Origin: Niameybacter massiliensis
GTDB taxonomy: Bacteria; Bacillota; Clostridia; Lachnospirales; Cellulosilyticaceae
Direction of reading: 5' to 3'
DNA: 64,000 nt
Assembly (NCBI RefSeq): GCF_001282685.1
Contig: NZ_LN875035.1
Location: forward strand, 2,980,411 to 3,044,410
In this document: piece by piece, positions 23,956 through 49,090 of the stretch
How positions within the stretch are numbered: position 1 is the stretch's first letter
Layout of the letters: each line of letters begins with the position of its first letter
Program-made: the position numbers and the translations under genes
Notes under the pieces: generated by a model
What the model was told of the DNA's origin: nothing
The model's input: the letters and a program-made list of their open reading frames with translations, nothing else
The model's database searches: none

Positions 23956-26517
23956 TTATTTACTTTCAAGATATTTAAGAAGCATTGTTCCAATACCTAC
24001 GTTATAGCCTGCAATTGCCATACTTGCAATCATAGGTTTATTCATAACAAAGGCAAGAGGGAATTTCTTATCTAAGATATCAAAGTCTTCGTATAAGTAT
24101 ACGAGGTCTTCTTTCTTATAGCCTACATAGACTTGAATAAATGGCAGTGCTTGTAATGTTTTTTGTAACGTTGGATTCTCTAAATCCTCTGTTTCTTCTA
24201 CTACAAGGACAACATTTGGTTTTTGTTCTAAGTACTGCTCTTTTGCTTTAATCATTTCATTGAGAAGATGTTCTGTTGGCTCTGCACCTGCATCAAGGAA
24301 GGCTACAATATTTCTTGTGTCTTCTATCACTTCTGAAAGCTCACATATATCTCCATTTGTATTCATGAAGTTTGTTTCTTTTACTACGATTTCTTTTTGA
24401 TGTGCGCTATTTACTTCTGCAAGCTTCACACCTAATTCTACTGTTTCATTTTCTTTAATTGCTACATAATAAAGGTTAGCATGTACTGTACCTGATGCTT
24501 CTCTATTGACAGTGATTACACGGTACTCACCTGCTTCAACAAGATAGCTCATTTTGCCCTCAGCCCAGTCACCTGTCTCTAACCAAAGTGTACGGTAAAC
24601 ACCATTTACATAGCGCCCTACTGTATAAGTCTTCATATATTCATGAACAGTTTCATCTTCAGCTTTTAAAGTAAGTGTGCTATTTTTAACGACTTCTTCT
24701 TGTTGTACGCCTACTTCAATTTCTACCCAAGTTCCATCTTGGAAGTAGCTCATATTACCATTTTCTTTGTTTAATCTTGCTGGGATACCAAGTGTTCTAC
24801 AAATCGCTACAAATAGAATCTTTTTAGATGCTACGTGTCCAAGTCTTACTTTCATAACACCTACAGGTAGTGCACATAAGTAACCATTTTGAGCACTTGT
24901 AGCTGTTGCAATATATTCATCTACAAAGTCATAAATACTTCTTGGATTTTGTTTAAAGCTTGCAACTTGTGCCCCGTCAAAGAATACTTCTAGTCCTTGA
25001 CGGTAAGGTGTGATCTTTTCTGTTGCAATACGTGGTGCTAAGATCCCTTTTACAAATACTGTTTCTTCAAAGTTATCTTTGAACTGCATTGCATGTTGTA
25101 AGTGTGCTTTTAAAGTTTCACAGCTTGTATCTGAAAGATCTTTTGTATTCATTGTATCAAGCATCTTCACTTTATAAGCGAGAAGGTCTTTTGTTGCTTC
25201 ATCTGTAAAGAATGCTTGAATCTCTTCATAATTACCACGTGCAGATTCTAGGTGTTTAGCTACACCTTCTTCAAATGGTGCAAAATCCTTTGCCCATTCA
25301 CGTGCTTTATCACCTAAGAAGAATGTCCCTGCAAAGGCATTTCTTATACTTTGTGCCTCTTGATGGCGTGCTTCATGACGTTTTTTAGTTTCTTCGTCAA
25401 TGGCATTCTCATCTGGAGATGCACCTTTTGGTGGTACAAGTGTAATCGTTTCTACAAGTCCTGGTGTACGTTCTTTATCTGTAAGAACAATAGTTAAATG
25501 ATCTTCTAAACGTACATCGATTTGGTCATACGTTGCAATGCCATCTTTATGTACATAGATTAATAGATCTCCAAATCCTGTTGTAAACTTGGCTTGACCT
25601 AATGCATTTGTTTCAAGCTCTGTAAGAGGGAAAAGTTCTCCGTAGTTGACTACTTCAAATCTTACTTTTGCACCTTCTACTGGATTGCCTGCTGGATCAT
25701 TAACTGTAATCGTAATTTCTTTTGTTGCTGCATAACGATCTAGAGTATTGACTTCTGTTGCACTGTCTGTTTGACGTGTAATCAGTTCATTTTCTACCGT
25801 TGTTGCAAATACTTTGCTACCTATAAGCATCCCACGAGATGCTGAAAGTTGGAACCAACCTGAATCAAGTGTCGCTTCTGGCTCACAAGCACCTAAGAAA
25901 TGCCACTCACCGTCTGTCCATACTTCTACCCATGCATGGTTATCATCACAGTGTGCCCATCTTGGTGTGTAAGCTTGTCTTGCAGGAATCCCTACACTTC
26001 TAAAGGCTGCTACGCCAAGTACAGATTCTTCTCCACATCTTCCATATGCATTACGGATAGTTGTAAGTGGATCTGTTGTTCTTGAATCTGTTGTTTGATA
26101 TGTTGCTTTTTCAAAGCACCAATAGTTGATAATAAGTGCTGCTTCTTGCATGCTCTTACCTTCAATTCTTGGGTAAAGCTCTTCAAAGAAATCATCTTTA
26201 TAAAACTCAATGTACTCATTACTCATACGGTATTGAAGGACATAGTTTAAGAATAACCCACCTGTAAGTTTATCTCCCCAAGGTACTATTTGACGTACTT
26301 TAAGCGCTTGTCTTACAAACTTAAGGAAAAGTGCACCATCATGGTTTGCAAGGTCTTGTTCTGGCATGAATGCATAAAGGTATTTTAAGCAAATAGCTTC
26401 ATCTTCATTACACTCAGTAAGTACCCCAAAAAGCTCCTCTTCTCTATGTTTAGCTGCTTCCCTTACAGCTACGAAGCGTTCTTCAATAATCTGTCTGTGT
26501 TCATTACTTACTAACAT
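23956..26517 (-). CDS. Multidomain transglutaminase-like protein with thioredoxin-like C-terminus
   Basis: 853 residues, no signal peptide. Residues ~100-230 are a transglutaminase-like core. The catalytic Cys is in AYGRCGEESVLGVAAFRSVG, the His in DNHAWVEVW, and the acid follows in FLGACEPEA. Residues ~265-345 form an Ig/carboxypeptidase-regulatory-like domain (PAGNPVEGAKVRFEV). A helical part follows (~370-500), then a second transglutaminase-like region (~540-620, LFVAICRTLGIPARLNKENG) with no catalytic Cys. The last ~120 residues resemble a thioredoxin-like fold without CxxC. It is the last gene of an operon with GH29, GH18 and GH29 enzymes. It might cleave or deamidate the peptide part of glycopeptides, but that is speculative. 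Confidence 0.75.
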   Translation of the reverse strand: MLVSNEHRQIIEERFVAVREAAKHREEELFGVLTECNEDEAICLKYLYAFMPEQDLANHDGALFLKFVRQALKVRQIVPWGDKLTGGLFLNYVLQYRMSNEYIEFYKDDFFEELYPRIEGKSMQEAALIINYWCFEKATYQTTDSRTTDPLTTIRNAYGRCGEESVLGVAAFRSVGIPARQAYTPRWAHCDDNHAWVEVWTDGEWHFLGACEPEATLDSGWFQLSASRGMLIGSKVFATTVENELITRQTDSATEVNTLDRYAATKEITITVNDPAGNPVEGAKVRFEVVNYGELFPLTELETNALGQAKFTTGFGDLLIYVHKDGIATYDQIDVRLEDHLTIVLTDKERTPGLVETITLVPPKGASPDENAIDEETKKRHEARHQEAQSIRNAFAGTFFLGDKAREWAKDFAPFEEGVAKHLESARGNYEEIQAFFTDEATKDLLAYKVKMLDTMNTKDLSDTSCETLKAHLQHAMQFKDNFEETVFVKGILAPRIATEKITPYRQGLEVFFDGAQVASFKQNPRSIYDFVDEYIATATSAQNGYLCALPVGVMKVRLGHVASKKILFVAICRTLGIPARLNKENGNMSYFQDGTWVEIEVGVQQEEVVKNSTLTLKAEDETVHEYMKTYTVGRYVNGVYRTLWLETGDWAEGKMSYLVEAGEYRVITVNREASGTVHANLYYVAIKENETVELGVKLAEVNSAHQKEIVVKETNFMNTNGDICELSEVIEDTRNIVAFLDAGAEPTEHLLNEMIKAKEQYLEQKPNVVLVVEETEDLENPTLQKTLQALPFIQVYVGYKKEDLVYLYEDFDILDKKFPLAFVMNKPMIASMAIAGYNVGIGTMLLKYLESK

Positions 26518-34989: not shown

Positions 34990-35030
34990 AAACTAGAACA
35001 AGCTCACCTAAAGTGAGCTTGTTCTAGTTT
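34990..35030 (-). terminator. Terminator of the eight-gene glycosaminoglycan-type operon
   Basis: A perfect 18-bp stem (34990-35007 with 35013-35030), 5-nt loop, lies 6 nt after the sulfatase stop. The T-run on the minus strand is only three long, but stem strength is high. Confidence 0.8.
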
Positions 35031-35036
35031 GCCTAT

Positions 35037-36536
35037 TTATTGCTGAATAAATACTGTCTTACCTTCTTTATAAATACCACAACGTCCAATTTGCCCTAAC
35101 CCTTTGACTGGCTCTGCTTTGCCATCTACTCGTGGATCTACATATTTATAGTACCATCCCTCTAGACGTGCAAAGAGTTCTTCTTTTTTGTCTTGATAAT
35201 CTGGGTGATTTACAAGATTCACTTTTTCTCCTGGATCATTGACTAAATCATAAAGTTCATGTTCTCCATATGGATAACGGTGAATGTATTTCCATTCCTC
35301 AGTACGAATCATACGGGTTGGACCGTATTCATCCATAATAATAATTTCACCTTGATCTACTGGCTCTTCACTTTTTAGAATTGGTAAGAAACTTTTCCCA
35401 GGTAAAATAGACATATCAATATTATGGTCTACTTGTAAGTAGTCTAATAGTGTTGGTACAACATCATAATGACTTACAAGTTCTTTCTTCACTTGCCCAG
35501 CCTTAATCCCTTTTGGATATCTGATTAGCCCTGGTACCTTTACTGCACTGTCATACATATTAAGTGGGTATGTTCCATTACCCTTTCCGATAATCCCATG
35601 CTGACCTACACTCATACCATTATCTCCTGTAAAGAAAACAATGGTATCATCTGCTAGGCCTTGTGCGTCAAGATAGTCAAGAATATCTCCTATCCCCTTA
35701 TCCATTGCAGATATGGCAGCATAGTAACCTTTTAAGCAGAATTCTTTTACTTTTTTCATCTGCTCTTTTGTATGTCCTTTATATCCACTCCATGGATGGC
35801 CTTCTTCATCTTCTACTGATTCACATGGACAATTTTCATACATACTGTAAAATTCTTCTGGATGTTCATGTCTATCAAAAGGCGCATGAGGCGCTGTATA
35901 ATGTACACTTAAATAAAATGGTTCGTCTTTACCTTTTTGCATATGTAAAAAATCTAAAGCTTTATCTGTAATGTGGTCTGTTAAATATTTACCTTCTGGC
36001 AAGATATCAAACTTCCCATCTACTAGTACTGCAGAATTATAATAATGGTCTCCACCAAGTGCTATGGTTTGCCAATAGCTAAACCCTGCTTGTGCATGTC
36101 CACTATCTCCTAAATGCCATTTCCCACTTAAGCCACAAGTATAACCTTCCTTAGCTAATACTTCTGTAAAACAAGTATGCCCTTCTAAATAGTTGACCCC
36201 ACGGTCACCCTTTAGCTGCTGTGTAATCCATCCAAACTTTGGTTCAACTTGTTCTTTGTACATCTCCTTTAAAAGTCCTTCACTAGCGTCTGATTCATTA
36301 GCATGGCCTTTACTAATCCAGTCATGTACACCATGTTGTGATGGAATCTTACCTGTAAAGAATGAAGCTCTTGCTGGAGAGCAAACTGGTGATGCACAAA
36401 AGAAGTTTTCAAATCTTACACCTTCATAGGCAATACGGTCCAAGTTTGGTGTTTTAAGTTCTTTGTTTCCTGCACATCCTAAAGACCAATGTCCATGGTC
36501 ATCTGAAATAATAACAACGATATTAGGCTTCTTCAT
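35037..36536 (-). CDS. Type I sulfatase (S1 family)
   Basis: 499 residues. Metal-binding acids are in VIISDDHGHWS (D12, D13). The formylglycine site is Cys52 in ASPVCSPARASFFTG, i.e. the C-x-P-x-R form that needs post-translational oxidation; anaerobes use anSME, which is not encoded in this window. Further motifs are GKWHLGD and FFTGDNGMSVGQHGIIGKGN. The C-terminal region (TEEWKYIHRYPYGEHELYDL) is standard. No signal peptide, so it would act in the cytoplasm on imported saccharides. It is the last gene of the operon containing heparinase-type, GH88 and GH89 genes, which suggests a sulfated glycosaminoglycan substrate. Position specificity (2-O, 6-O or N-sulfate) cannot be read off. Confidence 0.93.
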   Translation of the reverse strand: MKKPNIVVIISDDHGHWSLGCAGNKELKTPNLDRIAYEGVRFENFFCASPVCSPARASFFTGKIPSQHGVHDWISKGHANESDASEGLLKEMYKEQVEPKFGWITQQLKGDRGVNYLEGHTCFTEVLAKEGYTCGLSGKWHLGDSGHAQAGFSYWQTIALGGDHYYNSAVLVDGKFDILPEGKYLTDHITDKALDFLHMQKGKDEPFYLSVHYTAPHAPFDRHEHPEEFYSMYENCPCESVEDEEGHPWSGYKGHTKEQMKKVKEFCLKGYYAAISAMDKGIGDILDYLDAQGLADDTIVFFTGDNGMSVGQHGIIGKGNGTYPLNMYDSAVKVPGLIRYPKGIKAGQVKKELVSHYDVVPTLLDYLQVDHNIDMSILPGKSFLPILKSEEPVDQGEIIIMDEYGPTRMIRTEEWKYIHRYPYGEHELYDLVNDPGEKVNLVNHPDYQDKKEELFARLEGWYYKYVDPRVDGKAEPVKGLGQIGRCGIYKEGKTVFIQQ

Positions 36537-36582: not shown

Positions 36583-38850
36583 CTATCTTAAAATACTATG
36601 CATACCTGCTTCTAAGTGCTGTGTTTTATCCCATCCTTCAATATGTACTGTACAAGGTCCATTTATAGAGATAACGATTTCTTCTACTAGATCTTCACTA
36701 GGAGTAATAAACATCCCCTCAGCTGTTTGAGCTACTTTGCAGTTATAGTTTAAGAGTTCCTCTTGATCTTGGTGAACATAAGCTTTTGTAAGCGCTACTT
36801 CCTCTAAACATTTAAAATGCTCATGTACATCATTATCACAAGCACCACCTTTATAATGCCCCTCTTGTTCTCCACGATTTGGAAAAGCATAGCAATGGGT
36901 TACTTGTTCTTGGTCACACTTCCACCAATCTGATACCATAGAGATATATTCTTCTCCCACTACTTTAGATACTAGCTTACCTTGTCCTGGTACTTGTTCA
37001 TTGGGTACAAAGATTTGTGCTTCCACATAAGGGTCCACAATGAAAGCCCATCTTAACTCTCCTGTTTCAATATCAATTACTTGCATACTTGCCCCTAATG
37101 TATCCATTGTATCTTTAAGATACGCCTTGTCTCCTGTTAGACGATATAAGTAATAGGTTGCATAAGTCTTCCATGATGTCCATCCATGTGGACTTGTCAT
37201 CATATTTTGTGGAATCATAACATCATACATGGTTTCCCAGAATCTAAGAGTTGCACCACGCATACGACAATCTGGTATTTGTTGTAGTTCTAAGCACTTA
37301 TGTTTTTCTAACATATAGCGGGCTACTTCTTCATACCCAGCTCTCGCTTCTAAGTCTTCTTGCATCAAGGCAAAAAGTCCTAGTTGTAAACTACTACAAG
37401 AAATCATACCATCTTCAAAAGTCATCTCACCTTCTGTTTGAATATCATCTCTAGAATCTCGTAGTTCATCTATTGCACGCTTAATGCTTATATAATGTTT
37501 ATCTGCTAGGTTTTGCCAGTAATCTTCTTTTATTTGTCTTTCTACTTGGTAAAGTTCTATAAGGCTCTTAGCAATATAGATAACACAAGTATAATGCACC
37601 CCATACCCGCATCGGTAAGCACCATCTGCACTTTGATACTTCATAACGTGTTCTGCCAGTCTTGCTCCACGTTCTAAGTACATTATATTTTGAGTAGCCT
37701 CATAAGCATCTGCTAAAAGGCTAATCATCAGTGCCGTATTTTGAATACGTCCTGGCTCTGCTGTACCTACTGGCACCATTTGCTCCATATCATGCATTAC
37801 TCTAAAGACTTCTTCAAACTTCTCTTCTAATTGTTTGTCTAACGTTGCATCTGTTTGATACTTTCTAGCTAAGAAACTAGAAAAGAAGCCATACCATCCT
37901 TCTGTATGTGTTCCTGCTTTTTGTTCATACTTCAGTGTGGCTTTACGTGCTTCATAGAGATAATAAGACCATGGTTTTCTTACATAAATAAGTGCTTCAC
38001 TTACTTTATCATTATAAGAAGCAACCACTTGCCATACACCGTATTCATTAAGTGCTTCCATCTGTTCTTTTGTATAGATTTTCCCTGAAGGAGATGTATA
38101 GGTTACTTCTCCCTTACAACTTATAGAAGGCTTTTCACCATATTCGTAAGTGTACTTATCCATAGTTGGTAACGCTGCTTGTGTATAGGCTTCTACAACT
38201 GGTTTAATCTCTGCTTCACTCTCTACCAACTTAAGGAGGACTTCAAAAACTTTGGTCTCTCTTGGTTCAAGGTGGTCTAAATCTTGTGGGTGACGTTTAG
38301 GTAGTGGCCCTTTATTCAAGAGGTCTAAGCTCATTGTATAAATACGATGTCCTGTATCTGTTGTAGAACCGCCATAATCTGCACGACTATAACAATGATG
38401 CCATGATGCGACTGGACCTTTTGTGGCAATAGCTACTACTTTGCCTGCTGGTGTACGCATATATCCCCAAGTATGAGTCTTTTCTGTACGTAACATAGTA
38501 CAGAAGAATTTATCATTCCACTCTGGGTAGCCTACCATATAAGTATCTATGCCTAGTCTCAGCTCACACTTTTTAGGTGCAAAGATTTCTTCTCCTTTAT
38601 TCATCAGAGCAACTTTTATTTCTACCCCTTCATTTTCTTCTACATAACTTAGTTCTACGTCCACCTTACCATATTGCCCTACAAACTTATCATCACTTAC
38701 TTTATTTACAATAATATAGGTTGGCTCAGATTCTTTTTGATGAGGCCATATGAGAAGCGCTGGCCCTCTATACCCATCTTCTCTAAATTGAATGGTTGTA
38801 TCTTTCCAAGTAATGCTTTGGAGTATCCCATTTGCTGTTAATTTAATCAT
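36583..38850 (-). CDS. Unassigned large protein, beta-sandwich plus alpha-helical toroid
   Basis: About 755 residues from the ATG at 38850, which lies 12 nt after GGAGG; an in-frame GTG at 38859 is only 3 nt from that site. Residues ~1-220 look beta-rich (GYRGPALLIWPHQ, KCELRLGIDTYMVG). Residues ~290-620 are helical with repeating pairs (WYGFFSSFLARKYQ, RIQNTALMISLLADAYEATQ, ARLAEHVMKYQSADGAYRCG), the look of an (alpha/alpha)6 six-hairpin glycosidase or polysaccharide lyase. I recognise no family with confidence. No signal peptide. It sits between GH89 and the sulfatase in a glycosaminoglycan-type operon, so it may be an uncharacterised glycosidase, lyase or deacetylase for the same chains. 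Confidence 0.6.
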   Translation of the reverse strand: MIKLTANGILQSITWKDTTIQFREDGYRGPALLIWPHQKESEPTYIIVNKVSDDKFVGQYGKVDVELSYVEENEGVEIKVALMNKGEEIFAPKKCELRLGIDTYMVGYPEWNDKFFCTMLRTEKTHTWGYMRTPAGKVVAIATKGPVASWHHCYSRADYGGSTTDTGHRIYTMSLDLLNKGPLPKRHPQDLDHLEPRETKVFEVLLKLVESEAEIKPVVEAYTQAALPTMDKYTYEYGEKPSISCKGEVTYTSPSGKIYTKEQMEALNEYGVWQVVASYNDKVSEALIYVRKPWSYYLYEARKATLKYEQKAGTHTEGWYGFFSSFLARKYQTDATLDKQLEEKFEEVFRVMHDMEQMVPVGTAEPGRIQNTALMISLLADAYEATQNIMYLERGARLAEHVMKYQSADGAYRCGYGVHYTCVIYIAKSLIELYQVERQIKEDYWQNLADKHYISIKRAIDELRDSRDDIQTEGEMTFEDGMISCSSLQLGLFALMQEDLEARAGYEEVARYMLEKHKCLELQQIPDCRMRGATLRFWETMYDVMIPQNMMTSPHGWTSWKTYATYYLYRLTGDKAYLKDTMDTLGASMQVIDIETGELRWAFIVDPYVEAQIFVPNEQVPGQGKLVSKVVGEEYISMVSDWWKCDQEQVTHCYAFPNRGEQEGHYKGGACDNDVHEHFKCLEEVALTKAYVHQDQEELLNYNCKVAQTAEGMFITPSEDLVEEIVISINGPCTVHIEGWDKTQHLEAGMHSILR

Positions 38851-38932
38851 TTCACTCACTATCCTCCATGTGCTTTTACCCTTCGTAGTGTTTAAAAAAT
38901 TAATCTTTTAATTACTCAAAATAAGTATTCAC

Positions 38933-41014
38933 TTAAAAATAAATGTCTTGAATATGTTTAATAATTTCTTTCAAATTGCCTTGTGGCTCAGTTGGATAAG
39001 TATTATGACCTACTGTCCATGTTTGTTCCAACTTATACCAGTCAATCTCTTCTAACGTTGTATTTGATTCAAGTGCTTCTTCTAATGCCTTAAAGTAAAG
39101 TGCCCATCTTTTTGCATAGAAATCTTTTGTGAGCCCGCCCCATTGACGATGAGAATAATCACGTAAAAGTACCGATCCTTTCTCATTAGCCCATAGAGTA
39201 ATAATGGTTCTAGCATTCCATTCTAAATAATCTTTTTCTTTCTCTGTCCCACCTAATGCTCTTGCCTGCTCTAGATAAGTTCCCAGTAAAAAGTCTGGAT
39301 GAGCACTTAGTAATTCATCCATCTTCACTACCATCTCTAAAAATGTTTGACTTTCTCTTTTAAAGGTTTCAAGTTCTTTATTTTGATAAGCTTGAGCCCA
39401 TTTTTCATATTGAAATCTTCCAATATCGGATAAAGCTTGTCTTGTCACATCTACAATATCATATAAGTAACCTTCTGAATCCTTCAATATTTCATAGTCT
39501 ACAAACAAGTACTTGCTTGCCTTAACCATAGCTTGTTGGTCATAGTAATAAGACTTAGGCCCCCAAGTTGAAACGTTCTCAATATCTAATCTTGGTCTGC
39601 CACAAAAGATACTTTCTACGCCACCTTCTTGCCTTCTTGTACAATTGTAGATACTTTCTCTTAAAACTTTCCAAGCTGCTTTACTAGCCTCTGATGCCTT
39701 ACCATATCTTCTTAAAATATAGTTTTCTATCCACTCTTCTAGTACAACCTTCTCTTGGTTCCAGCTGGTATCTAAAAGTAAATCCCATACTACCGGATTA
39801 TTATCGATCCCTTCCATGGTCATGCCTACACCGAGCATCTTACCTGCTTCTTCATTATGATAGGCCTCAATATGACCATTAGCAGTAGCTTGCAAGTTAC
39901 CATAGAGACCATTTTTACCTCCAAAGTTACCAAGTACGCACCATAACCATGGTATGCCTTTATAAGCTTTTCTCTCTTGCCATGTTGGGTTTGCTTCGCA
40001 CCATAGGTCTAAAATGAGAGTATGAGTTGGATCTAATGCCTCTACTGTTACATCATCTGGGTTGCCACCCCAGCCCTGAATAATCCAAATTGCTTGTGGG
40101 TCATGTTGTAACATTTTATCTTGAATCATCTTGATACAGTGTCCTACATCTAATCCGTCTCTATTGCCTCCTTCATGGAACGGGTCAGTACAGTAAAACG
40201 GACTCTCTACACCAAAGATTTCTTGTTGTTTAGCATAGAAAATATCTGCTACTTTATCAAACATAGGCGTACCTGGAATGAGTAAATCTGGTCTATTTAA
40301 ATCACACCAAAAACCTTGTTGCAATGTATTTACATCTTCATAACGTTCTTTGAAATTTCTAGGAATCATTCCACTATATCCTTGCATAGCAGGTATAATC
40401 CCAAGTTCTTCCATACGTGTATGAATTTTCTTAGCTAATGCTACACGTCTTTCGAACCATTCATCTGTATAATCACTTCCCCAGCCTTCAATATTTTGCA
40501 TCCATTGCCATGGCAAGAAGGCTGGACCACATATAAATGCTTTAGCTTCTTCATTACTATAACCAAGTTCTATCAGTGTTTGTCTCCAAACTTCCTCATG
40601 TCCTACTAAGCTCAGTGCTAGATTGATACCATTTAGAGCCATCCAATCCAGTTCCTTTTCCCATCTATCCCAGTCCCAAAAAGCCATGGAATAGCCATAT
40701 GTACAGTAATTCATATAGTACTTATAGGTATAAGGTGTTTGCTTGTAAATCGTTTCTTGTAAAGTTGGCCATTCCCCTTCAATCTTCTTTTGACACCCAC
40801 ACCAAGTTAAATTGATCTTTAAATAATGCTTTAAATACCAATGTACTCCCGATGCAGCTGCTAATGCTGTTGAAGCTATGACCACTATTTTATTATCCTT
40901 ACTACTTAGCTCAAAGTAATCTGTTTGTGTTTTTCTATCTTCTAGTCTTATCACAAATTGCTCTGCTGCACTTTCTCCTAGAACACGACTTACCAAGCCA
41001 TCAATAACTTGCAT
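38933..41014 (-). CDS. GH89 alpha-N-acetylglucosaminidase (NAGLU-like)
   Basis: 693 residues from the ATG at 41014, which follows AGAGGAGGTAAATAC; an in-frame start 30 bases upstream would overlap the previous gene. The three NAGLU parts are visible: N-terminal alpha/beta domain (ALAAASGVHWYLKHYLKI), barrel (YYMNYCTYGYSMAFWDWDRW, GPAFLPWQWMQNIEGWG), and helical C-terminus. Candidate catalytic Glu residues are in TDPFHEGGNRDG and VGMTMEGIDNNP. Human NAGLU removes terminal alpha-GlcNAc from heparan sulfate; bacterial members also act on gastric mucin GlcNAc-alpha-1,4-Gal caps. No signal peptide. Flanked by heparinase-type and sulfatase genes, so heparan sulfate is the favoured substrate. Confidence 0.92.
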   Translation of the reverse strand: MQVIDGLVSRVLGESAAEQFVIRLEDRKTQTDYFELSSKDNKIVVIASTALAAASGVHWYLKHYLKINLTWCGCQKKIEGEWPTLQETIYKQTPYTYKYYMNYCTYGYSMAFWDWDRWEKELDWMALNGINLALSLVGHEEVWRQTLIELGYSNEEAKAFICGPAFLPWQWMQNIEGWGSDYTDEWFERRVALAKKIHTRMEELGIIPAMQGYSGMIPRNFKERYEDVNTLQQGFWCDLNRPDLLIPGTPMFDKVADIFYAKQQEIFGVESPFYCTDPFHEGGNRDGLDVGHCIKMIQDKMLQHDPQAIWIIQGWGGNPDDVTVEALDPTHTLILDLWCEANPTWQERKAYKGIPWLWCVLGNFGGKNGLYGNLQATANGHIEAYHNEEAGKMLGVGMTMEGIDNNPVVWDLLLDTSWNQEKVVLEEWIENYILRRYGKASEASKAAWKVLRESIYNCTRRQEGGVESIFCGRPRLDIENVSTWGPKSYYYDQQAMVKASKYLFVDYEILKDSEGYLYDIVDVTRQALSDIGRFQYEKWAQAYQNKELETFKRESQTFLEMVVKMDELLSAHPDFLLGTYLEQARALGGTEKEKDYLEWNARTIITLWANEKGSVLLRDYSHRQWGGLTKDFYAKRWALYFKALEEALESNTTLEEIDWYKLEQTWTVGHNTYPTEPQGNLKEIIKHIQDIYF

Positions 41015-41033
41015 GTATTTACCTCCTCTAGCT

Positions 41034-42992
41034 TTATCCAACAATGGTATGTACTTTAGTTTGATCTTCTGTTTGCTTAATGAGTGTCACTCTACCATAA
41101 ACATCTTGCCCTTCTACAACAAAAAGACGTCTATAAGTCTCGTCATGTTTAATAACAAGGGTATATTTTTCATTTTCATAAGTAATTCTAATTGCCTCTA
41201 GATGCTGCCCATTTGGTACTTCTTTACCCTCTGTATAAACAGGAACATATTCTACTTGCTCTCTACTTTCCTTATGAACATCTCCTAAAATCATAACGGT
41301 TATAATACTTCCACTTCCCTTATGCTTTAATGTGGTCTGAAGGACTTGTTGAGCTTGAAGTTGATTATACGTCTTGGAGGTTATCCCCTCTATTACTTTT
41401 TTATCTATTGGCTGTAAATGATATAAGTTTGCCTTTACATTATTTCCTTTGAAGGTAACTGCTTCCCCAACTTCTAAATGACCCTCTCCAAAATGAAAAT
41501 ACTGTTCATAAGTATGCTCTTCTTTTGCAGTAAACTCATCGACTAATACAACAATATTGGGCTTAATCACAATTACTTTACGATTGATAAATACAGGATC
41601 ATCTAGATCCATATATCCTAGATGTGCTCCTTCTACATAATCATAAAGTTCATGATTCACAAACTCTCTTTGTACATGAGGTGCTACTTTACCATAGCCC
41701 CATGTATCAATAATTTTAGTAAATGGGACGCCATCTACCACAACTGTATTGTGTGCTGTCGCACTTTTTAAGCTATAGCGTTCTTTAGAGTCTGTATAAG
41801 TATAACGTCCTTGATCCTTTAAGACATCTTCTCCTAAATAAGCCACATCTACATGAAGTAAATCTACATGCCCATGTCCTCCACCTAGATTGCCACACTT
41901 AAAATGAACATAAATACCGTCTTCATCCCAAGTATGACGCATACAATAGTTGCCACTTTCTCTTAAAGCTTTTGAACAAATTTCTGGATAATAGCTTTCT
42001 AGGTTGTCATATACCTTTACACCTTGCATACCTATATCCCAAATACTTTCAAAATCTACCTTTTCATAGCCTAATGCTTTATAAATAGGATTTTCATATA
42101 AGTAAGCACCTCTTACCAATATATCCCTTAAATCCATAGCATCACTATCTCCATTTGCTAATTGGATATGATTTGGCTTAGTCATATAAATATGTGCTTC
42201 TAGCATTTTATTAACTACTTGATGATAATGAGGGGCTAATGTAATCCCATTGTTTTTTGCACATATCCCTACATCTACAAGTGCTCTTAAAACTTCGTTG
42301 TGATAAAGCTGTGATTGTTCCCAGTGCAATCCATCATCTAGAACTTGGAGCTGTACTGCTTTATAAAGACGTTCTTTGGCTACTTGAACATAATGGTCAT
42401 TCCCCAGAAATACACCAGCTACAAATAGTCCATGATTTTCTATAACACCCCAGTTACTCAATCTTCTAAAGTCATCATTGTGAGCTAAAATATGCTCACA
42501 ATGATGTTTTAAACTTTCTTTTAAAGCAATAGTAACTTCCTCATTCCACTGTAGGCTTGTGCTAAAAATCTCATAAGCTTTTATCCAATTCTCACAGCGT
42601 AATCCTGTCTCTATTGTACGCCAAGTAGTATATTGACTTTGATCTGTCAAAGGTTGATGTTCTATCCAATGCATCAAAAGTCTAATACCTTCACTGACGT
42701 ACTCTTCTTTTTCTGTTAGAGCATAAGCTTGTGCTAGTGAAACAAAGTAACGATGGCGATTCATAGCATACATCCACTCTGGATCTCCAAAAGGTACTAA
42801 ATCCCATCCTATATTATCTCCTTCAAAGGTTACAGCGTCATAAGTTCTCTCCATTTCCCACTTGCTTTCAAACAAGAATCTATGACCAAGTACATCTTTT
42901 GCAACTTTCAAAGCTAAGATACTTTCCTCTTCACAGTACATCTTACAATAACTTACAATTTCTTCTAAACCTTCTCCAATATATGTTTGCAT
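41034..42992 (-). CDS. Heparinase II/III-family polysaccharide lyase
   Basis: 652 residues. The N-terminal half is an alpha-helical toroid (FRRLSNWGVIENHGLFVAG carries the Asn-His typical of the active site; HWEQSQLYHNEVLRALVDVG follows). The C-terminal half is a beta-sandwich with the family signature GGGHGHVDLLHVDVAYLGED and SATAHNTVVVDG. These enzymes break uronic-acid-containing chains by beta-elimination, leaving an unsaturated uronyl end, the substrate of GH88. The lack of a signal peptide implies action on imported oligosaccharides. It is 10 nt downstream of an ABC transporter gene and 19 nt upstream of GH89. PL12, PL15 and PL21 are the candidate families. Confidence 0.88.
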   Translation of the reverse strand: MQTYIGEGLEEIVSYCKMYCEEESILALKVAKDVLGHRFLFESKWEMERTYDAVTFEGDNIGWDLVPFGDPEWMYAMNRHRYFVSLAQAYALTEKEEYVSEGIRLLMHWIEHQPLTDQSQYTTWRTIETGLRCENWIKAYEIFSTSLQWNEEVTIALKESLKHHCEHILAHNDDFRRLSNWGVIENHGLFVAGVFLGNDHYVQVAKERLYKAVQLQVLDDGLHWEQSQLYHNEVLRALVDVGICAKNNGITLAPHYHQVVNKMLEAHIYMTKPNHIQLANGDSDAMDLRDILVRGAYLYENPIYKALGYEKVDFESIWDIGMQGVKVYDNLESYYPEICSKALRESGNYCMRHTWDEDGIYVHFKCGNLGGGHGHVDLLHVDVAYLGEDVLKDQGRYTYTDSKERYSLKSATAHNTVVVDGVPFTKIIDTWGYGKVAPHVQREFVNHELYDYVEGAHLGYMDLDDPVFINRKVIVIKPNIVVLVDEFTAKEEHTYEQYFHFGEGHLEVGEAVTFKGNNVKANLYHLQPIDKKVIEGITSKTYNQLQAQQVLQTTLKHKGSGSIITVMILGDVHKESREQVEYVPVYTEGKEVPNGQHLEAIRITYENEKYTLVIKHDETYRRLFVVEGQDVYGRVTLIKQTEDQTKVHTIVG

Positions 42993-43002
42993 ACCCCACC
43001 TC

Positions 43003-45180
43003 TTATTGCTTCATATGTGTAGTTTGTTTTTGAGCCATAACTAAGTTGTAGTAAATACCTTTTTTCTCTAATAATTCTTCATGTGTTCCCATTTCAGCAA
43101 ATGTTCCTTTATCAATAACAAGAAGTCTATTTGCCTTTTGCAAAGTAGAAAGCCTATGAGCTATAGCAAAGGTTGTTTTACCTTGCTTAAGTCTTTCTAA
43201 TGCTTCTTGAATTTTTTTTTCTGTCTCTGTATCTAGTGCTGAAGTTGCCTCATCTAAAATTAAAATCTTTGGATTATGAAGTACAGCTCTAGCAATAGCA
43301 ACGCGTTGTCTTTCTCCACCTGATAGAGTATGGCCTTTTTCACCAATTACTGTATGGTAAGCATCTGGTAACTTAACAATGAACTCATGTGCATTGGCAA
43401 CTTTAGCTGCTTCTATAATTTCATCAAGTGTTGCATCTGGTTTAGCATAACGGAGATTATCTATAATCGTTCCTTCAAAGAGGAATGTCTCTTGAAGTAC
43501 AACACCAATCTGACTTCTTAGAGCCTGTGTCGAGTAACTTCTAATATCTATCCCATCAATTGTAATCTTCCCATCTGCTACATCATACAAGCGCATTAAT
43601 AAGTTAATAAGCGTTGACTTACCTGCTCCTGAATGCCCTACAATCCCTATCATTTCTCCTGCCTTAACTTCAAATGATACATCTTTGAGTACTGGTTCAT
43701 AAACTTTGTAACCAAAACTTACATCTTGGAAAACTACATCTCCTATAATTTCCTTTTTAATAGGTTCATCAATCTCTTCCATCTCACATTCTTCATCTAG
43801 AAGTTCAAAGACTTTCCCTGCACTTACAAATACATCTGCAAATACCCTCGGAAGTTGAATTGCCCATCTTAAAGGTACATAAATCATAGTAATATAAGTT
43901 GTATACTGAATCAGTTGCCCCAGTTGCATTTTCCCACCTAATACTAAGTAACCACCCATCCATAGAACTAAAAACTCTCCAAGTCCCATTAAGTATCCTA
44001 TGTAAGGATAAAACTTAGACCAAAGTGTCTCTGCATTAATCATGGCATCTTTAACTTGGTCTACATTTTCCGTATATTTCTTAATTTCAATTTCTTCATT
44101 TCCGTAGGCTTTTACAACACGAATACCACTTAAAATATCATGAAGTGCACTACTTGCCTTTTCATGTTTACGCCATTGTTTCCAATATCTAAGTCCCATC
44201 TTATCCTGCATTTTTGTAACTGCATATAAAACAGGTGGAAGGGGTACTAATACCATAAGTGCTAAACGATAGTCCATCACAAAGAGTAAAATACTTAATA
44301 CAATCAAGGAGAAGATACGATTAATGGCATCTCGTCCATAGTTTGATATAAACTCTTGTATTTTCTCTGTATCACTATTAATACGATTCATTAACTCCCC
44401 TGGTGTACGGTTAGATACCGTACTTAATGAAAGCTCTTGAATCTTTACAAATACTTGATTACGTAAATCTCTTGAAATACTATTTGAAAGAAGATTGGTC
44501 CACTTCATAACAAAGCGTTCAAACCAAGTAATGGTTGCAAATACAGTTAAATAAACAGCTAATAGAATCAAAAGATGTGGCACATTTTGATTCTTTGGTA
44601 CAATATAATCATCAATGATGACACGTAATATGTACGGATTAACAATCCAAAGCACTTCCATTACAAGTGTTCCAAGTAAGGTATATAAAAAGACCTTCTT
44701 ATAATCTTTACCAATTGCAAAAATCTTTCTCAGTACTTTTGTTTTACTTTGACATTTAAAACATGTCTTACTCCCATTTAAAAGTGGGAAACCACATTTC
44801 GGACAGATATATTCTTCTTGCTCTTCTTCATAAGTGCTGTGCTCACCTGTCTTGTGGTAATAATTGATAAGCTTCGCAAGTTCAACATAGCGCTTAAACC
44901 ATTTCGGTTTAAAACCACAAATCATCTGTTCTTCTTCATCTATTTTTGCACTAAACAATCCACTTCCTACAAGTTGCTTTGCTTCACAATCTTGTAGTTT
45001 TTCTAATGGATAACTTGCTTCTAACACTTTATTTTTAAAAATATAAAATAGACTTTTAGTTATAACAACATTACCTTCCTCACTTTTGCCATCAAAACTC
45101 AGGTCAAAAGGAAGGGCATAGAGAATGTCCCCTTCTACTTCACGGCTTACCTCTATGGGAAGTTCAAATTTCAGTCTCAT
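43003..45180 (-). CDS. ABC half-transporter with N-terminal domain and zinc ribbon (DUF1854-associated)
   Basis: 725 residues. Residues ~1-120 are an extra beta-rich cytoplasmic domain. A zinc ribbon follows (YICPKCGFPLLNGSKTCFKC, ~125-147). Residues ~165-450 hold six transmembrane helices of the exporter (type IV) fold. The ATPase (~480-725) has Walker A GHSGAGKST, signature LSGGERQRVAIARA, Walker B ILILDEATSALD and H-loop AIAHRLST, all intact. It probably pairs with the ABC protein at 45663. In proteobacteria this ABC plus DUF1854 arrangement is annotated as cyanophycin-associated, but no cyanophycin gene is here. Its place between GH88 and a heparinase-type lyase suggests glycan transport. 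Confidence 0.85.
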   Translation of the reverse strand: MRLKFELPIEVSREVEGDILYALPFDLSFDGKSEEGNVVITKSLFYIFKNKVLEASYPLEKLQDCEAKQLVGSGLFSAKIDEEEQMICGFKPKWFKRYVELAKLINYYHKTGEHSTYEEEQEEYICPKCGFPLLNGSKTCFKCQSKTKVLRKIFAIGKDYKKVFLYTLLGTLVMEVLWIVNPYILRVIIDDYIVPKNQNVPHLLILLAVYLTVFATITWFERFVMKWTNLLSNSISRDLRNQVFVKIQELSLSTVSNRTPGELMNRINSDTEKIQEFISNYGRDAINRIFSLIVLSILLFVMDYRLALMVLVPLPPVLYAVTKMQDKMGLRYWKQWRKHEKASSALHDILSGIRVVKAYGNEEIEIKKYTENVDQVKDAMINAETLWSKFYPYIGYLMGLGEFLVLWMGGYLVLGGKMQLGQLIQYTTYITMIYVPLRWAIQLPRVFADVFVSAGKVFELLDEECEMEEIDEPIKKEIIGDVVFQDVSFGYKVYEPVLKDVSFEVKAGEMIGIVGHSGAGKSTLINLLMRLYDVADGKITIDGIDIRSYSTQALRSQIGVVLQETFLFEGTIIDNLRYAKPDATLDEIIEAAKVANAHEFIVKLPDAYHTVIGEKGHTLSGGERQRVAIARAVLHNPKILILDEATSALDTETEKKIQEALERLKQGKTTFAIAHRLSTLQKANRLLVIDKGTFAEMGTHEELLEKKGIYYNLVMAQKQTTHMKQ

Positions 45181-45207
45181 AGATTTTCTCCCTCTAAACT
45201 TATTAGA

Positions 45208-45666
45208 TTATAAAAATACGTCTAACTTCTGTTTACTCAATTGGTCTAATGTATTGAAATCACTAATGCGATATTTATTTCCTTCTACATCTGTAATACT
45301 TAAAATCTTATTTTTAATTAAACGGATATTACTTACAAAGTCTGCAATACATACTTCTTTTTTTCCTGCTGTTGTATCAAGGTCTACATATAAGAAGCCC
45401 ATCTTTTCTTTTACTTGATTTACTTTTGTGATTTCTGGCATGTAGTATTTGTAACTTAAGTAGTCTAAAAGCAAAGTACGTTCTTCTTCTCTTAAGTCAT
45501 TGAGATCCTTTAAAATTGTAATTTCTTTATTCTCTTGATCTAACAATGCAATATATTTTTTCTCATATTGATAAGGAAACAGTCTTACAACATTGACTTT
45601 TTCATAAGTTTCCCCATCTTTTATAACCTTCAAAAATCCACTTGGCATCTTTTCTATTTGAATCAT
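45208..45666 (-). CDS. DUF1854 protein
   Basis: 152 residues, no membrane segment or signal peptide. The DUF1854 pattern is visible: VNVVRLFPYQYEKKYIALLD at ~23-42, ILKDLNDLREEERTLLLDYL at ~51-70, then a short helix and a beta-rich second half (MGFLYVDLDTTAGKKEV, GNKYRISDF). Its ATG overlaps the TGA of the upstream ABC gene (ATGA), and the next ABC gene starts 27 nt after its stop, so the three are one translational unit. The protein has no known biochemical role. By position and constant company it is probably a cytoplasmic subunit or regulator of the ABC pair, perhaps contacting their extra N-terminal domains. Confidence 0.88.
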   Translation of the reverse strand: MIQIEKMPSGFLKVIKDGETYEKVNVVRLFPYQYEKKYIALLDQENKEITILKDLNDLREEERTLLLDYLSYKYYMPEITKVNQVKEKMGFLYVDLDTTAGKKEVCIADFVSNIRLIKNKILSITDVEGNKYRISDFNTLDQLSKQKLDVFL

Positions 45667-47915
45667 ACGCTTATCTGTCCTTCTTCCATAAATTTGATTG
45701 CTTCTGCTTGAAGCTGGTATAAGTCATAATATTTACCTTTTTGTTCAATGAGTTCCTCATGTGTACCTTGTTCTAGAAGCTTCCCATCTTCTATAACTGC
45801 CAGTTGGTCTGCATCTCTTAAGGTTGAAAGTCTATGTGCAATGGCAATAATTGTACAGCCTTCTTTTAATTCATCAATTGCTTCTTGAATCTTTCTCTCT
45901 GTTTGCGTATCCATAGCTGAAGTCGCTTCATCTAAAATAAGTAGTGAAGGCTTCTGCAAGATTGCCCGGGCAATGGATAAACGTTGTCTTTCTCCACCAG
46001 ATAATCCAACACCTCCTGCCCCAATAATGGTGTCATACGCATCTGGAAGCTTAATAATAAATTCATGAGCATAAGCTGCCTTAGCCGCTTCAATAACTTG
46101 ATCCATAGTTGAATCTGGATTTGCATAACGGATATTATCTGCTATAGTTCCTACAAATAAATAGGTTTCTTGAGAAACAATACCTACATGTTTTCTTAAA
46201 TCATGATTTTTAATCTCTTTAACATTTACACCATCTATTAAGATTTCACCATTTGTTGGATCGTAAAGACGTGAAATGAGATGGATAATAGTTGATTTAC
46301 CAGCACCGGTCTTTCCTACAATCCCAAACATTTGACCTGCTTTTACACGAAGTGAAATATCTTTAATAATAGGACGACCTACTTCATACTCAAAACTTAC
46401 TTCTTTAAGCTCTACGGATTCACGAATTTCTTCTAAAGGTACAGGATGTTCACTCTCTGTCACAGTTGGTACTGTATCAATAATCTCAAACATTCTAGAT
46501 GCTGCATCCATACAGTTAGACCATCTATTCCCAATATTTGCAAAGAACATGACTGAGCTTTCAATCATCCCTGTATAGGAAAAGAGTATGTATAAGCTAC
46601 CTAATGTTAAACTTCCAAAAATAATTGAAAATGCACCAATAGCTAATACTGCTACATTTGAAAATCTATAAATTAAACGTACCTTAGGCATCATATAAGC
46701 TGTGCGATCCCCTATTTGATAGCTTACATGATAAAACTCTTTATTCTTTTCATCATATCTTCTTACTTCTTCATGTTCCTTAGCAAAGGCTTTGACTACA
46801 CGTTGCCCATTTAAGGATTCACTTACAACGGCTTGTGTTCCCTTAACAGCACGGTGTCTTCTGCGCCATAATTTTCTTTGTTTTTTTCTAAAGTTCTTTA
46901 GAATCATTGTAATCAAAATAACTGATCCAAACATAACAAGGGTAATCTCTACACTAATCCATAGCATAATACCAAGAAGCCCTACTATGGTTACAAAGCT
47001 TACAATCCCATAAGGCAATACATCTACGAAAAACCAATAAATGTTCATGGCATCATTTTCAACTCTTGTCATAAGAGACCCTGTTTGTTTACTAGAAAAG
47101 AATGCTACAGGCAATGTTTGCAACTTAGAAAAAATCTCTACTTTAATATCTCTTGTAATCTTTGGTGTAATATGTGCTAAAATGAGCCCATATACCATGG
47201 ATAAAATAACACCAATCAATTTAACTAGTGCAATTAAGATAACAATCAATGTTACCTTTCCATACCAGCCTCCACCTTCTGTAAGTACCTCATCATATAA
47301 AAGGCGTGTACTAAAGTATGGTGCAATTAAGTTAAAGATAGTACTCAATGTAATCATAACCATAACAGTTATAAATTCTTTTTTGTAGTTAAGGTACTTT
47401 TTAAGTAACCTTTTAAAAGTTGTTTGCTTATCCATACAATTCGGACATACTTTACGCTCTTGATTTGGGTATCTTGTATGGCATAATGGACAGTGCGTTT
47501 GTATCTCTTCAAGTAACGTATCATCAATTGTTTCTTTATTTTTTGTTTTTAATAAGCGTTCTTTAAACTTGTCAAAGACGTCACTCATCCCTAGTGAGAA
47601 TCTTACAAGAGGTCTTTCCCCCTCTTTTGTAGTCATAAGCAAAATAGCTGTTGTACTATAGCGATAAATACTTAAATCTTCTATTTTGTCTAATGGTATT
47701 TCTTCATAAGATTCCACTTCAAATTGTTCTACATCTATCTTTTCATAACCCTTTAAGATATACAGCTGATCTTTGTCAAAAGTAAGATGTACATCTATAT
47801 AACAACCTTCTTCATCTAAGTCTGCCTTAGCACAGTAAAGTAAGCCCTCTTCCTTAACCCCTCTTTTTACAAAGGCTTCTTCTACATACCACGGCATGTC
47901 ATAAAAATATTTCAA
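45663..47915 (-). CDS. ABC half-transporter with PH-like N-terminal domain and zinc ribbon (DUF1854-associated)
   Basis: About 750 residues if translation starts at the TTG at 47915 (7 nt after AAGGGGG, just past the GH88 stop). An ATG further upstream lies inside the GH88 gene, and an ATG at 47897 has no ribosome-binding site. Residues ~1-135 form a beta-rich domain (YIDVHLTFDKDQLYILKGYE, SIYRYSTTAILLMTT). A zinc ribbon CPLCHTRYPNQERKVCPNC is at ~144-162. Six transmembrane helices follow, then an ATPase with Walker A GKTGAGKST, signature LSGGERQRLSIARA and Walker B LLILDEATSAMD. It is the likely partner of the ABC protein at 43003. Both ATPase sites look active. Confidence 0.85.
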   Translation of the reverse strand: MKYFYDMPWYVEEAFVKRGVKEEGLLYCAKADLDEEGCYIDVHLTFDKDQLYILKGYEKIDVEQFEVESYEEIPLDKIEDLSIYRYSTTAILLMTTKEGERPLVRFSLGMSDVFDKFKERLLKTKNKETIDDTLLEEIQTHCPLCHTRYPNQERKVCPNCMDKQTTFKRLLKKYLNYKKEFITVMVMITLSTIFNLIAPYFSTRLLYDEVLTEGGGWYGKVTLIVILIALVKLIGVILSMVYGLILAHITPKITRDIKVEIFSKLQTLPVAFFSSKQTGSLMTRVENDAMNIYWFFVDVLPYGIVSFVTIVGLLGIMLWISVEITLVMFGSVILITMILKNFRKKQRKLWRRRHRAVKGTQAVVSESLNGQRVVKAFAKEHEEVRRYDEKNKEFYHVSYQIGDRTAYMMPKVRLIYRFSNVAVLAIGAFSIIFGSLTLGSLYILFSYTGMIESSVMFFANIGNRWSNCMDAASRMFEIIDTVPTVTESEHPVPLEEIRESVELKEVSFEYEVGRPIIKDISLRVKAGQMFGIVGKTGAGKSTIIHLISRLYDPTNGEILIDGVNVKEIKNHDLRKHVGIVSQETYLFVGTIADNIRYANPDSTMDQVIEAAKAAYAHEFIIKLPDAYDTIIGAGGVGLSGGERQRLSIARAILQKPSLLILDEATSAMDTQTERKIQEAIDELKEGCTIIAIAHRLSTLRDADQLAVIEDGKLLEQGTHEELIEQKGKYYDLYQLQAEAIKFMEEGQISV

Positions 47916-47929
47916 AGTCTTGCCCCCTT

Positions 47930-49090
47930 CTACCAATACGACTTCCAGTCTTTTAATAGTCTTACTATAGCTTCTACATAATAGTAATCTCCCCATACAT
48001 TACACTCATCTACACCATTATCTTGTACCGTATTATAAGGAGATTGTTTTGCATAAGTTCCATGCAAAAGTTGCCCGTTAGAAATCTTAGTATCTTTTAC
48101 TGAATAATTATCGATTAAAGATTTCAAGATTTTCTTTGCAATGGATTGATAATAAAGTGCTGCTTCTGGTTCTAGATACTTGCTCATTTCTAGCATACCG
48201 CATACAGCAATTGCTGCTGAAGATGAGTCTCTTGGCTCATTACTGCCATCTGTAAAGTCAAAATCCCAGTAAGGCACTAAATCTTCTGGCAAGTGTTCAA
48301 TAAAGAAATCTGTTACCTTTCTAAAAAGTTCGATATAACTTTCATCTTTTATGTATTTGTAGCTTAGAGCTAGGCCATAAACGCCCCATGCTTGCCCTCT
48401 TGCCCAAGCTGATCCATTTCTATAGCCTTGCGCTGTAACCCCTTTTACGCCATCCCCTGTTTCAGGATCAAAGTAGTAGGTATGATAAGTTGAATGATCT
48501 TCTCTTACAATATGTTTAAGACAAGTTTGAATATGTTTTCTGGCAATCTCTTCATACTTTTTGTCTTCTGTTACCTCTGTTGCCCAATATAACAATGGCA
48601 AGTTAAGTAGACAATCAATAATGAGCCTGTAGTTATCTGGTGCACCAAGTGTTCCCCAAGCCTGAATGAATTCCCCTTTTTCATGGAATCTACTTATTAA
48701 ATTATCTGCTGCAAGAAGCGCTGCCTGCTTTCCCTCTTCTGATCCCACTAACTTATAGGCTGCTACACAAGATAAAGAATATAAAAATCCCATATCGTGG
48801 TGATCTACACCTATACGTTTTTCTATTCTCTCAAGAAAACTTTCCACATGCTGAAGTGCTAAAACCTTAAATTTCTCTTCACCTGTCATTTCATAAGCTA
48901 ACCAAAGTTCCCCGGTATAAAAACCTTCAGTCCAATCATAATTTCCTCCTCCTTCATAAAATCCATTATGACTTACACATTTTTTGAATTGTTTCCCTAG
49001 GCTACTCATAGCATTTTCCGTCTGTTTAATGCAGTGTGTAAGTGCTACTTGTAGTTCCATTTGTGAAACTTCCAAACTGTTTACTCCCAT
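47930..49090 (-). CDS. GH88 unsaturated glucuronyl hydrolase
   Basis: 386 residues, an (alpha/alpha)6 barrel. The two catalytic-pocket Asp residues are in VDHHDMGFLYSL (D99) and YRLIIDCLLNLPLL (D159), 60 apart as in Bacillus UGL (D88/D149). Other motifs are YDWTEGFYTGELWLAYE and GSAWARGQAWGVYGLA. The enzyme hydrates the 4,5-double bond of the uronyl residue left by polysaccharide lyases, so it directly continues the reaction of the heparinase-type lyase in this operon. Cytoplasmic, no signal peptide. Start after GGGAGAAAGTAAAG. It is the first gene of the eight-gene leftward operon and is divergent from the GH35 operon. Confidence 0.95.
   Translation of the reverse strand: MGVNSLEVSQMELQVALTHCIKQTENAMSSLGKQFKKCVSHNGFYEGGGNYDWTEGFYTGELWLAYEMTGEEKFKVLALQHVESFLERIEKRIGVDHHDMGFLYSLSCVAAYKLVGSEEGKQAALLAADNLISRFHEKGEFIQAWGTLGAPDNYRLIIDCLLNLPLLYWATEVTEDKKYEEIARKHIQTCLKHIVREDHSTYHTYYFDPETGDGVKGVTAQGYRNGSAWARGQAWGVYGLALSYKYIKDESYIELFRKVTDFFIEHLPEDLVPYWDFDFTDGSNEPRDSSSAAIAVCGMLEMSKYLEPEAALYYQSIAKKILKSLIDNYSVKDTKISNGQLLHGTYAKQSPYNTVQDNGVDECNVWGDYYYVEAIVRLLKDWKSYW

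Follow-up and report, generated by a model that had tools for sequence, protein, structure and literature searches.

A widespread gut bacterial protein family without a Pfam or NCBIfam model is distantly related to the PL27 lyases

A 755-residue protein is encoded in a glycan-degradation operon of Niameybacter massiliensis, within the 64,000-nucleotide stretch of DNA analysed here (the window). The family to which it belongs is undescribed in Pfam, NCBIfam and the literature searched, and it has a recognisable distant relative in PL27. Homology between the two is well supported by the predicted fold and by profile comparison. The family is tentatively proposed, with confidence just short of even, to be a distant sister of PL27 that works like PL27, as an exo-lyase acting on a capped, 4-linked uronic acid.

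Reading frame and operon

The gene is encoded on the minus strand, a detail that the initial annotation did not give; the plus strand of 36583-38850 contains many stops and is a closed frame. A GTG codon nine bases upstream of the ATG provides an alternative start that would yield a protein of 758 residues. The frame is real, as previously supposed, and more than a chance occurrence, since same-length, same-architecture homologues (34-47% identity) exist in many phyla and the window copy retains every invariant barrel residue. A search of its own genome indicates that the gene is single-copy. No signal peptide is apparent, which suggests that the protein is located in the cytosol.

The gene belongs to an eight-gene minus-strand operon that runs from 49090 to 35037, in which successive genes overlap slightly or are separated by no more than about 80 bases. 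Its order is GH88, ABC half-transporter, DUF1854, ABC half-transporter, heparinase II/III-type lyase, GH89, the 755-residue gene and sulfatase. The reported position of the gene between GH89 and the sulfatase holds: both neighbours are on the same strand, about 80 (GH89) and 46 (sulfatase) bases away.

47930-49090, minus strand: GH88 unsaturated glucuronyl hydrolase, at the head of the operon (profile match and solved relatives)
45663-47996, minus strand: second ABC half-transporter (named by eye and by relatives at other loci)
45208-45666, minus strand: DUF1854 protein between both ABC genes (domain match)
43003-45180, minus strand: ABC half-transporter with exporter-type domain order (open reading frame and domain match)
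41034-42992, minus strand: heparinase II/III-type lyase (domain matches; closest solved relatives heparinase III)
38933-41044, minus strand: GH89 alpha-N-acetylglucosaminidase (PF05089, PF12971, PF12972)
38850-38859, minus strand: possible GTG start, adding three residues (open reading frame list)
36583-38850, minus strand: 755-residue protein (open reading frame; ATG at 38850, stop at 36583)
35037-36536, minus strand: sulfatase (PF00884, PF16347; closest solved relatives 5g2v and 7p24)
34990-35030, no strand: hairpin of 18 pairs immediately after the sulfatase, probable operon end (hairpin search)

Among solved proteins, the GH89 gene product matches alpha-N-acetylglucosaminidase (E 2e-178), GH88 matches unsaturated glucuronyl hydrolase (E 2e-118) and the lyase, with Pfam heparinase II/III domains at 1e-38 and 2e-22, matches heparinase III (E 1e-14). 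The sulfatase is similar to both an N-acetylglucosamine-6-sulfatase (5g2v, E 3e-52) and a mucin-desulfating sulfatase (7p24, E 8e-51). As judged from these matches, the gene set suits the breakdown of glycosaminoglycan fragments. GH89 enzymes and sulfatases of the GlcNAc-6-sulfatase-like type are also active on mucins. The wider window, in which GH29, GH18, GH123, GH35, GH95 and a GH109-like gene are found (GH123 tested, the rest named by eye), looks like a region for general host-glycan degradation. The hairpin may act as the terminator of the operon, with the qualification that its tail scored on the plus strand and the operon is on the minus strand.

Two further features of the window are recorded here. 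At 43003-47996, two exporter-type ABC half-transporters flank the DUF1854 protein, and cysteine pairs resemble a zinc ribbon; such an exporter-type pair is odd within a degradation operon. In Paenibacillus, close relatives of both ABC genes occur upstream of the family member (L025:1013-6318). On the margin of the glycoside-hydrolase cluster, 23956-26517 encodes an 853-residue protein in which Ig/carboxypeptidase-regulatory-like repeats accompany two transglutaminase-like stretches.

Extent of the family

Comparison of the single protein with Pfam, NCBIfam and PDB sequences returned chance-level matches only (including a CYK3 Ig-like domain, a C5-epimerase C-terminus and retron Eco8, each rejected as such), and phmmer against PDB sequences gave nothing up to E 10. 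For the 55 aligned members, no NCBIfam match was found at E 0.001, and Pfam matches were weak and scattered, with no family in common and none that covers any member. The models used were those of Pfam (2025) and NCBIfam (June 2026). A description of the family was not found in the literature searches, in which the papers naming both PL27 and GH89 describe other things.

Scans of genome contigs with the single protein and of viruses revealed no relative, whereas an alignment-based scan did find relatives: at least 121 in the GTDB collection, sampled at one genome per species, and 79 distinct loci were analysed. These relatives are distributed over Bacteroidota, Bacillota, Verrucomicrobiota, Lentisphaerota, Planctomycetota, Armatimonadota and Acidobacteriota, and gut carriers include Bacteroides fragilis strains, Phocaeicola, Odoribacter, Akkermansia, Holdemania and Lachnospiraceae. 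Two other genomes from the same order contain relatives, as do Persicobacter and Phocaeicola massiliensis records; the Persicobacter member, the sole annotated one encountered, is listed as a hypothetical protein. Another same-order match (L004) was discarded because it falls within an unrelated protein. The Bacillota include some members of 1500-2200 residues that carry cadherin-like, F5/8-type (CBM32-like) and FIVAR domains. In Anaeromassilibacillus senegalensis, two secreted-type members of 2230 and 2173 residues with FIVAR and cadherin-like domains are arranged in tandem (L039:567-14404), and a Rikenellaceae member (L068:3538-6693) is fused at its C-terminus to an inosine-uridine nucleoside-hydrolase-like domain (PF01156).

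Predicted fold and homology to PL27

To obtain a structural view of the protein, an AlphaFold2 model was calculated from a 55-sequence alignment (mean pLDDT 92.8, pTM 0.94). The model bears out the beta-rich front and helical (alpha/alpha) toroid that had been suggested from sequence, and domain limits were taken from DSSP.

Residues about 1-209: N-terminal beta domain
Residues about 230-290: Ig-like domain
Residues about 294-590 and 672-687: alpha/alpha barrel
Residues 599-637: beta insert
Residues 689-755: C-terminal beta domain

The fold search, which like the structure prediction had been suggested in the initial annotation, identified PL27 as the nearest solved structure. Among 350,542 solved chains compared using Foldseek, the top two matches are both the PL27 enzyme BACCELL_00875 (E 8e-23, TM 0.63/0.70, about 690 columns), and matches from the third onward (E 8e-9) are 14 orders weaker. 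In VIA-align, BACCELL_00875 superimposes on the model over 589 residues (Z 31.0, 3.4 Å, 13% identity), whereas the next families align over the barrel only (Z 24 over 315 residues). Of the matches listed, 2-epimerases, GH76 and GH88 cover about 300-330 barrel residues at Z 20-24, and PL27 is the sole one that covers the beta domain, Ig-like domain and barrel of the predicted structure together. The same barrel type in these fold matches also carries hydrolases, phosphorylases and epimerases.

For profile comparison, PL27 sequences were recovered from Bacteroides genomes, one of which is 100% identical to the BACCELL_00875 fragment. Alignment of the family and PL27 profiles using hhalign gave a probability of 95.5% in local mode (E 1.3e-8) and 98.7% in global mode (E 1.5e-15), relative to 0.1-0.5% for the controls (reversed PL27 and ten column shuffles). 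If only columns with at least 90% conservation in each family are counted, the alignment contains 25 pairs of identical residues, as compared to a mean of 2.1 and a maximum of 7 when the pairing is slid, a generous control in that the alignment itself favours conserved identical pairs.

Ordinary sequence searches do not place the family within PL27. The family profile (A2) reaches the PL27 structure 5no8 only at E 0.025, mainly via the Ig-like part, and its matches to filamin correspond to the Ig-like domain only. In the converse search, with a PL27 HMM, the window protein is absent from the matches up to E 10, and a few relatives are matched at E 3e-5 at best. The PL27 signature HLNEIAIRHWDGYWFGK (around RHWDGYWFGK) is replaced in the family (alignments A2 and A3), and Pfam DUF5695, which PL27 matches, is matched by none of the 55 members at E 0.01. 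A wider search of Bacteroidia for intermediates linking the family to PL27 gave only one more PL27 gene (L098/L102, G624:C1:543123-545075), which is read as two pieces and is reported to contain a single TAA stop. The earlier statement that no known GH or PL signature fits is thus correct as regards Pfam and NCBIfam families and is superseded by the match of the whole fold and barrel motifs to PL27. Similarly, the suggested new glycosidase or lyase family does lack a Pfam or NCBIfam model and does have a known relative in PL27.

Conserved barrel motifs

Five motifs are strongly conserved in the barrel, all encoded on the minus strand.

37738-37749, minus strand: R-x2-N, residues 368-371 (R in 54/55 and N in 52/55 members; PL27 R447/N450, 11/11)
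37408-37437, minus strand: TEGExTFEDG, residues 472-481 (nearly invariant in 55 members; E475/E479 equal PL27 E537/E541, E-x3-E)
37234-37245, minus strand: R-x-W-E, residues 536-539 (55/55; equals PL27 R593-x-W595-D596)
37180-37191, minus strand: P-H-G-W, residues 554-557 (P and W in 55/55, H in 53/55; equals PL27 P611-H612-Y-W614)
36820-36837, minus strand: D-N-D-V-H-E, residues 672-677 (52-55 of 55 members)

The barrel residues in common with PL27 are Asn371, Gly410, Tyr412, Glu475, Glu479, Arg536, Trp538, Pro554, His555 and Trp557, and probably Arg368, for which one of two alignments (local) puts the arginine elsewhere. Glu539 takes the place of PL27 Asp596. A local hhalign comparison restricted to the C-terminal parts recovers the P-H-x-W motif as well, and the likeness of D-N-D-V-H-E to PL27 ANDQDW was noted by eye only.

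Genomic context in other bacteria

In 18 of the 84 loci, that of the window among them, a GH89 gene lies no more than about 10 kb from the family member, and it is frequently the adjacent gene. On the tree, this neighbourhood requires at least seven changes and appears in three separated lineages, namely that of the window, Lachnospiraceae and Bacteroidales. No relatives of the window GH88 or heparinase-like lyase were detected at the other loci analysed (E 1e-3, 10-kb flanks); GH88 or GH105 may lie elsewhere in those genomes. Many of the loci in Bacteroides form PULs that include sigma/anti-sigma factors, SusC/SusD, an HGSNAT/NagX-like acyltransferase (E 2e-17 to human HGSNAT) and sometimes GH27. 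The acyltransferase was rejected as proof of heparan sulfate as a substrate, because NagX proteins are proposed to acetylate free glucosamine (PMC9007349). Other exo-hydrolase neighbours of the family belong to GH27, GH115, GH2, GH35, GH97 and GH116. For example, in Bacteroides fragilis (L050:9716-15226), the gene after the family member encodes GH115 (an alpha-glucuronidase family) rather than GH89, and a NigD-like protein comes next. In Phocaeicola massiliensis, a 1050-residue protein is encoded between the family member and GH89 (L042:12120-15269); it has no Pfam match at E 0.001 and is possibly another undescribed glycan enzyme.

A direct genomic link to PL27 is found in a Tannerella sp. 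MAG (Cc175_bin118, L054:17-4473), where the end of the family member overlaps the start of a PL27 gene (51% identical to BACCELL_00875) by 4 bp. In this organism, the members of these distantly related sister families are probably co-translated. This locus is the only one of 84 that pairs the family with PL27 and the sole direct genomic link; no family member was found in the flanks of 12 Bacteroidia PL27 loci. Description of the window operon as heparan-sulfate-like is apt in that its gene contents suit glycosaminoglycan breakdown, and the tie to heparan sulfate is weaker than claimed because, elsewhere, the family has GH89 as a neighbour with neither a glycosaminoglycan lyase nor GH88 present, or else neighbours GH27, GH115 or PL27.

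Proposed activity and alternatives

PL27 enzymes remove a rhamnose cap by beta-elimination, desaturating the GlcA residue in subsite +1 (PMC8377490). If the family works in the same way, the barrel pocket would hold the non-reducing end of an oligosaccharide, and the carboxylate would be neutralised, with Arg536 as the candidate residue on the model of PL42, a metal-independent lyase (PMC10951650). The C5 proton of the 4-linked uronic acid would then be abstracted and the cap sugar on O4 expelled by beta-elimination. Imported fragments would be processed in the cytosol beside the GH89, GlcNAc-6-sulfatase-like and heparinase-III-like enzymes and GH88, the last of which would remove the unsaturated uronate left behind. 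Catalysis, lyase chemistry and the exo mode are inferred, as is the nature of the substrate, for which a uronate-bearing glycan capped by an alpha-linked sugar, of heparan type or otherwise, is proposed. A more specific and unlikely version envisages a new PL family that clips an alpha-linked cap (e.g. alpha-GlcNAc or alpha-GlcNH2) off the non-reducing-end uronic acid of heparan-type oligosaccharides, as an exo-lyase parallel to lysosomal NAGLU in gut Bacteroidota, Bacillota and Verrucomicrobiota. GH89 itself can remove alpha-GlcNAc, and lyase activity leaves the division of labour between the two proteins unexplained. Nothing found points to N-deacetylase activity, which had also been suggested.

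The main rival is a glycoside hydrolase on a PL27-like scaffold, in which the carboxylates of TEGExTFED and RxWE would serve as acid/base. Together with GH89, such an enzyme would remove or follow alpha-linked sugars on host glycans, of the mucin type or others. Its resemblance in shape to PL27 would in that case be a matter of shared ancestry but not of a shared reaction. This alternative is plausible, albeit rather doubtful. The identity of 13% to PL27 leaves room for a different reaction, and the acidic residues Glu473, Glu475, Glu479, Asp480, Glu539 and Glu677 are strictly or nearly strictly conserved, although PL27 also has Glu475, Glu479 and an acid at position 539. The genomic context is consistent with hydrolysis as well: GH89 recurs as a partner in the three separated lineages without glycosaminoglycan lyases or GH88, the other partners are exo-hydrolases, and the lack of GH88 and heparinase-like relatives at other loci gives no help to a lyase whose product needs GH88. 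The F5/8-type (CBM32-like), FIVAR and cadherin-like layout of the large secreted members is one that has been described for mucin-active GH89 (PMC13096917). In contrast, fold and profile comparisons both identify a lyase as the nearest relative of solved structure.

It is very improbable that the protein is an alpha/alpha-barrel epimerase or isomerase, either a uronate C5-epimerase or one akin to the N-acylglucosamine/cellobiose 2-epimerases. The Pfam D-glucuronyl C5-epimerase C-terminus (PF06662) matches the window protein at E 0.12 (12.3 bits, below the cut-off of 23.3) and one of the 55 members at 1e-4, and the barrel resembles 2-epimerases (Z about 24); however, those fold matches are barrel-only and rank below the whole-chain match to PL27, and the gene sits among degradative exo-enzymes. 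The chance of a non-catalytic glycan-binding protein is, if anything, slighter still. No family member has a known activity, yet polar and aromatic barrel residues are strictly conserved across phyla, and the form without an apparent signal peptide is encoded inside a catabolic operon.

Taken together, the protein is probably an enzyme for trimming host or plant glycans. Placement of this widespread gut family, for which Pfam and NCBIfam hold no model, beside PL27 provides testable chemistry and a short residue list. An exo-lyase would be a tool for sequencing uronate-bearing glycans and would fill a step in gut host-glycan breakdown, whereas a hydrolase would make PL27 and this family a clear case of lyase/hydrolase divergence on one scaffold.

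Comparison with known enzymes

Three groups of enzymes are of relevance for comparison. The heparinase II/III-type lyases (PL12, PL15, PL21 and exolytic PL15_2) are alpha/alpha barrel glycosaminoglycan lyases, one of which is encoded in the operon; PL15_2 enzymes combine DUF4962 and heparinase II/III domains (PMC7904915). They differ from the 755-residue protein, in which PF07940, PF16889 and PF05426 are absent at E 1. GH88, also represented in the operon, shares the alpha/alpha barrel (Z about 20.8) but is about 390 residues long and consists of the barrel only; PF07470 does not match the 755-residue protein at E 1 and weakly matches one of 55 relatives (2.6e-5). Finally, the PL27 L-rhamnose-alpha-1,4-D-glucuronate lyases (BACCELL_00875, BT0263 and BACFIN_07013) are alike in whole-chain fold, profile homology and barrel motifs. 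The family differs from them in its low identity (about 13%), its extra C-terminal beta domain, its other neighbours and the replacement of PL27 Gln542 by Asp480, beside the shared E-x3-E motif.
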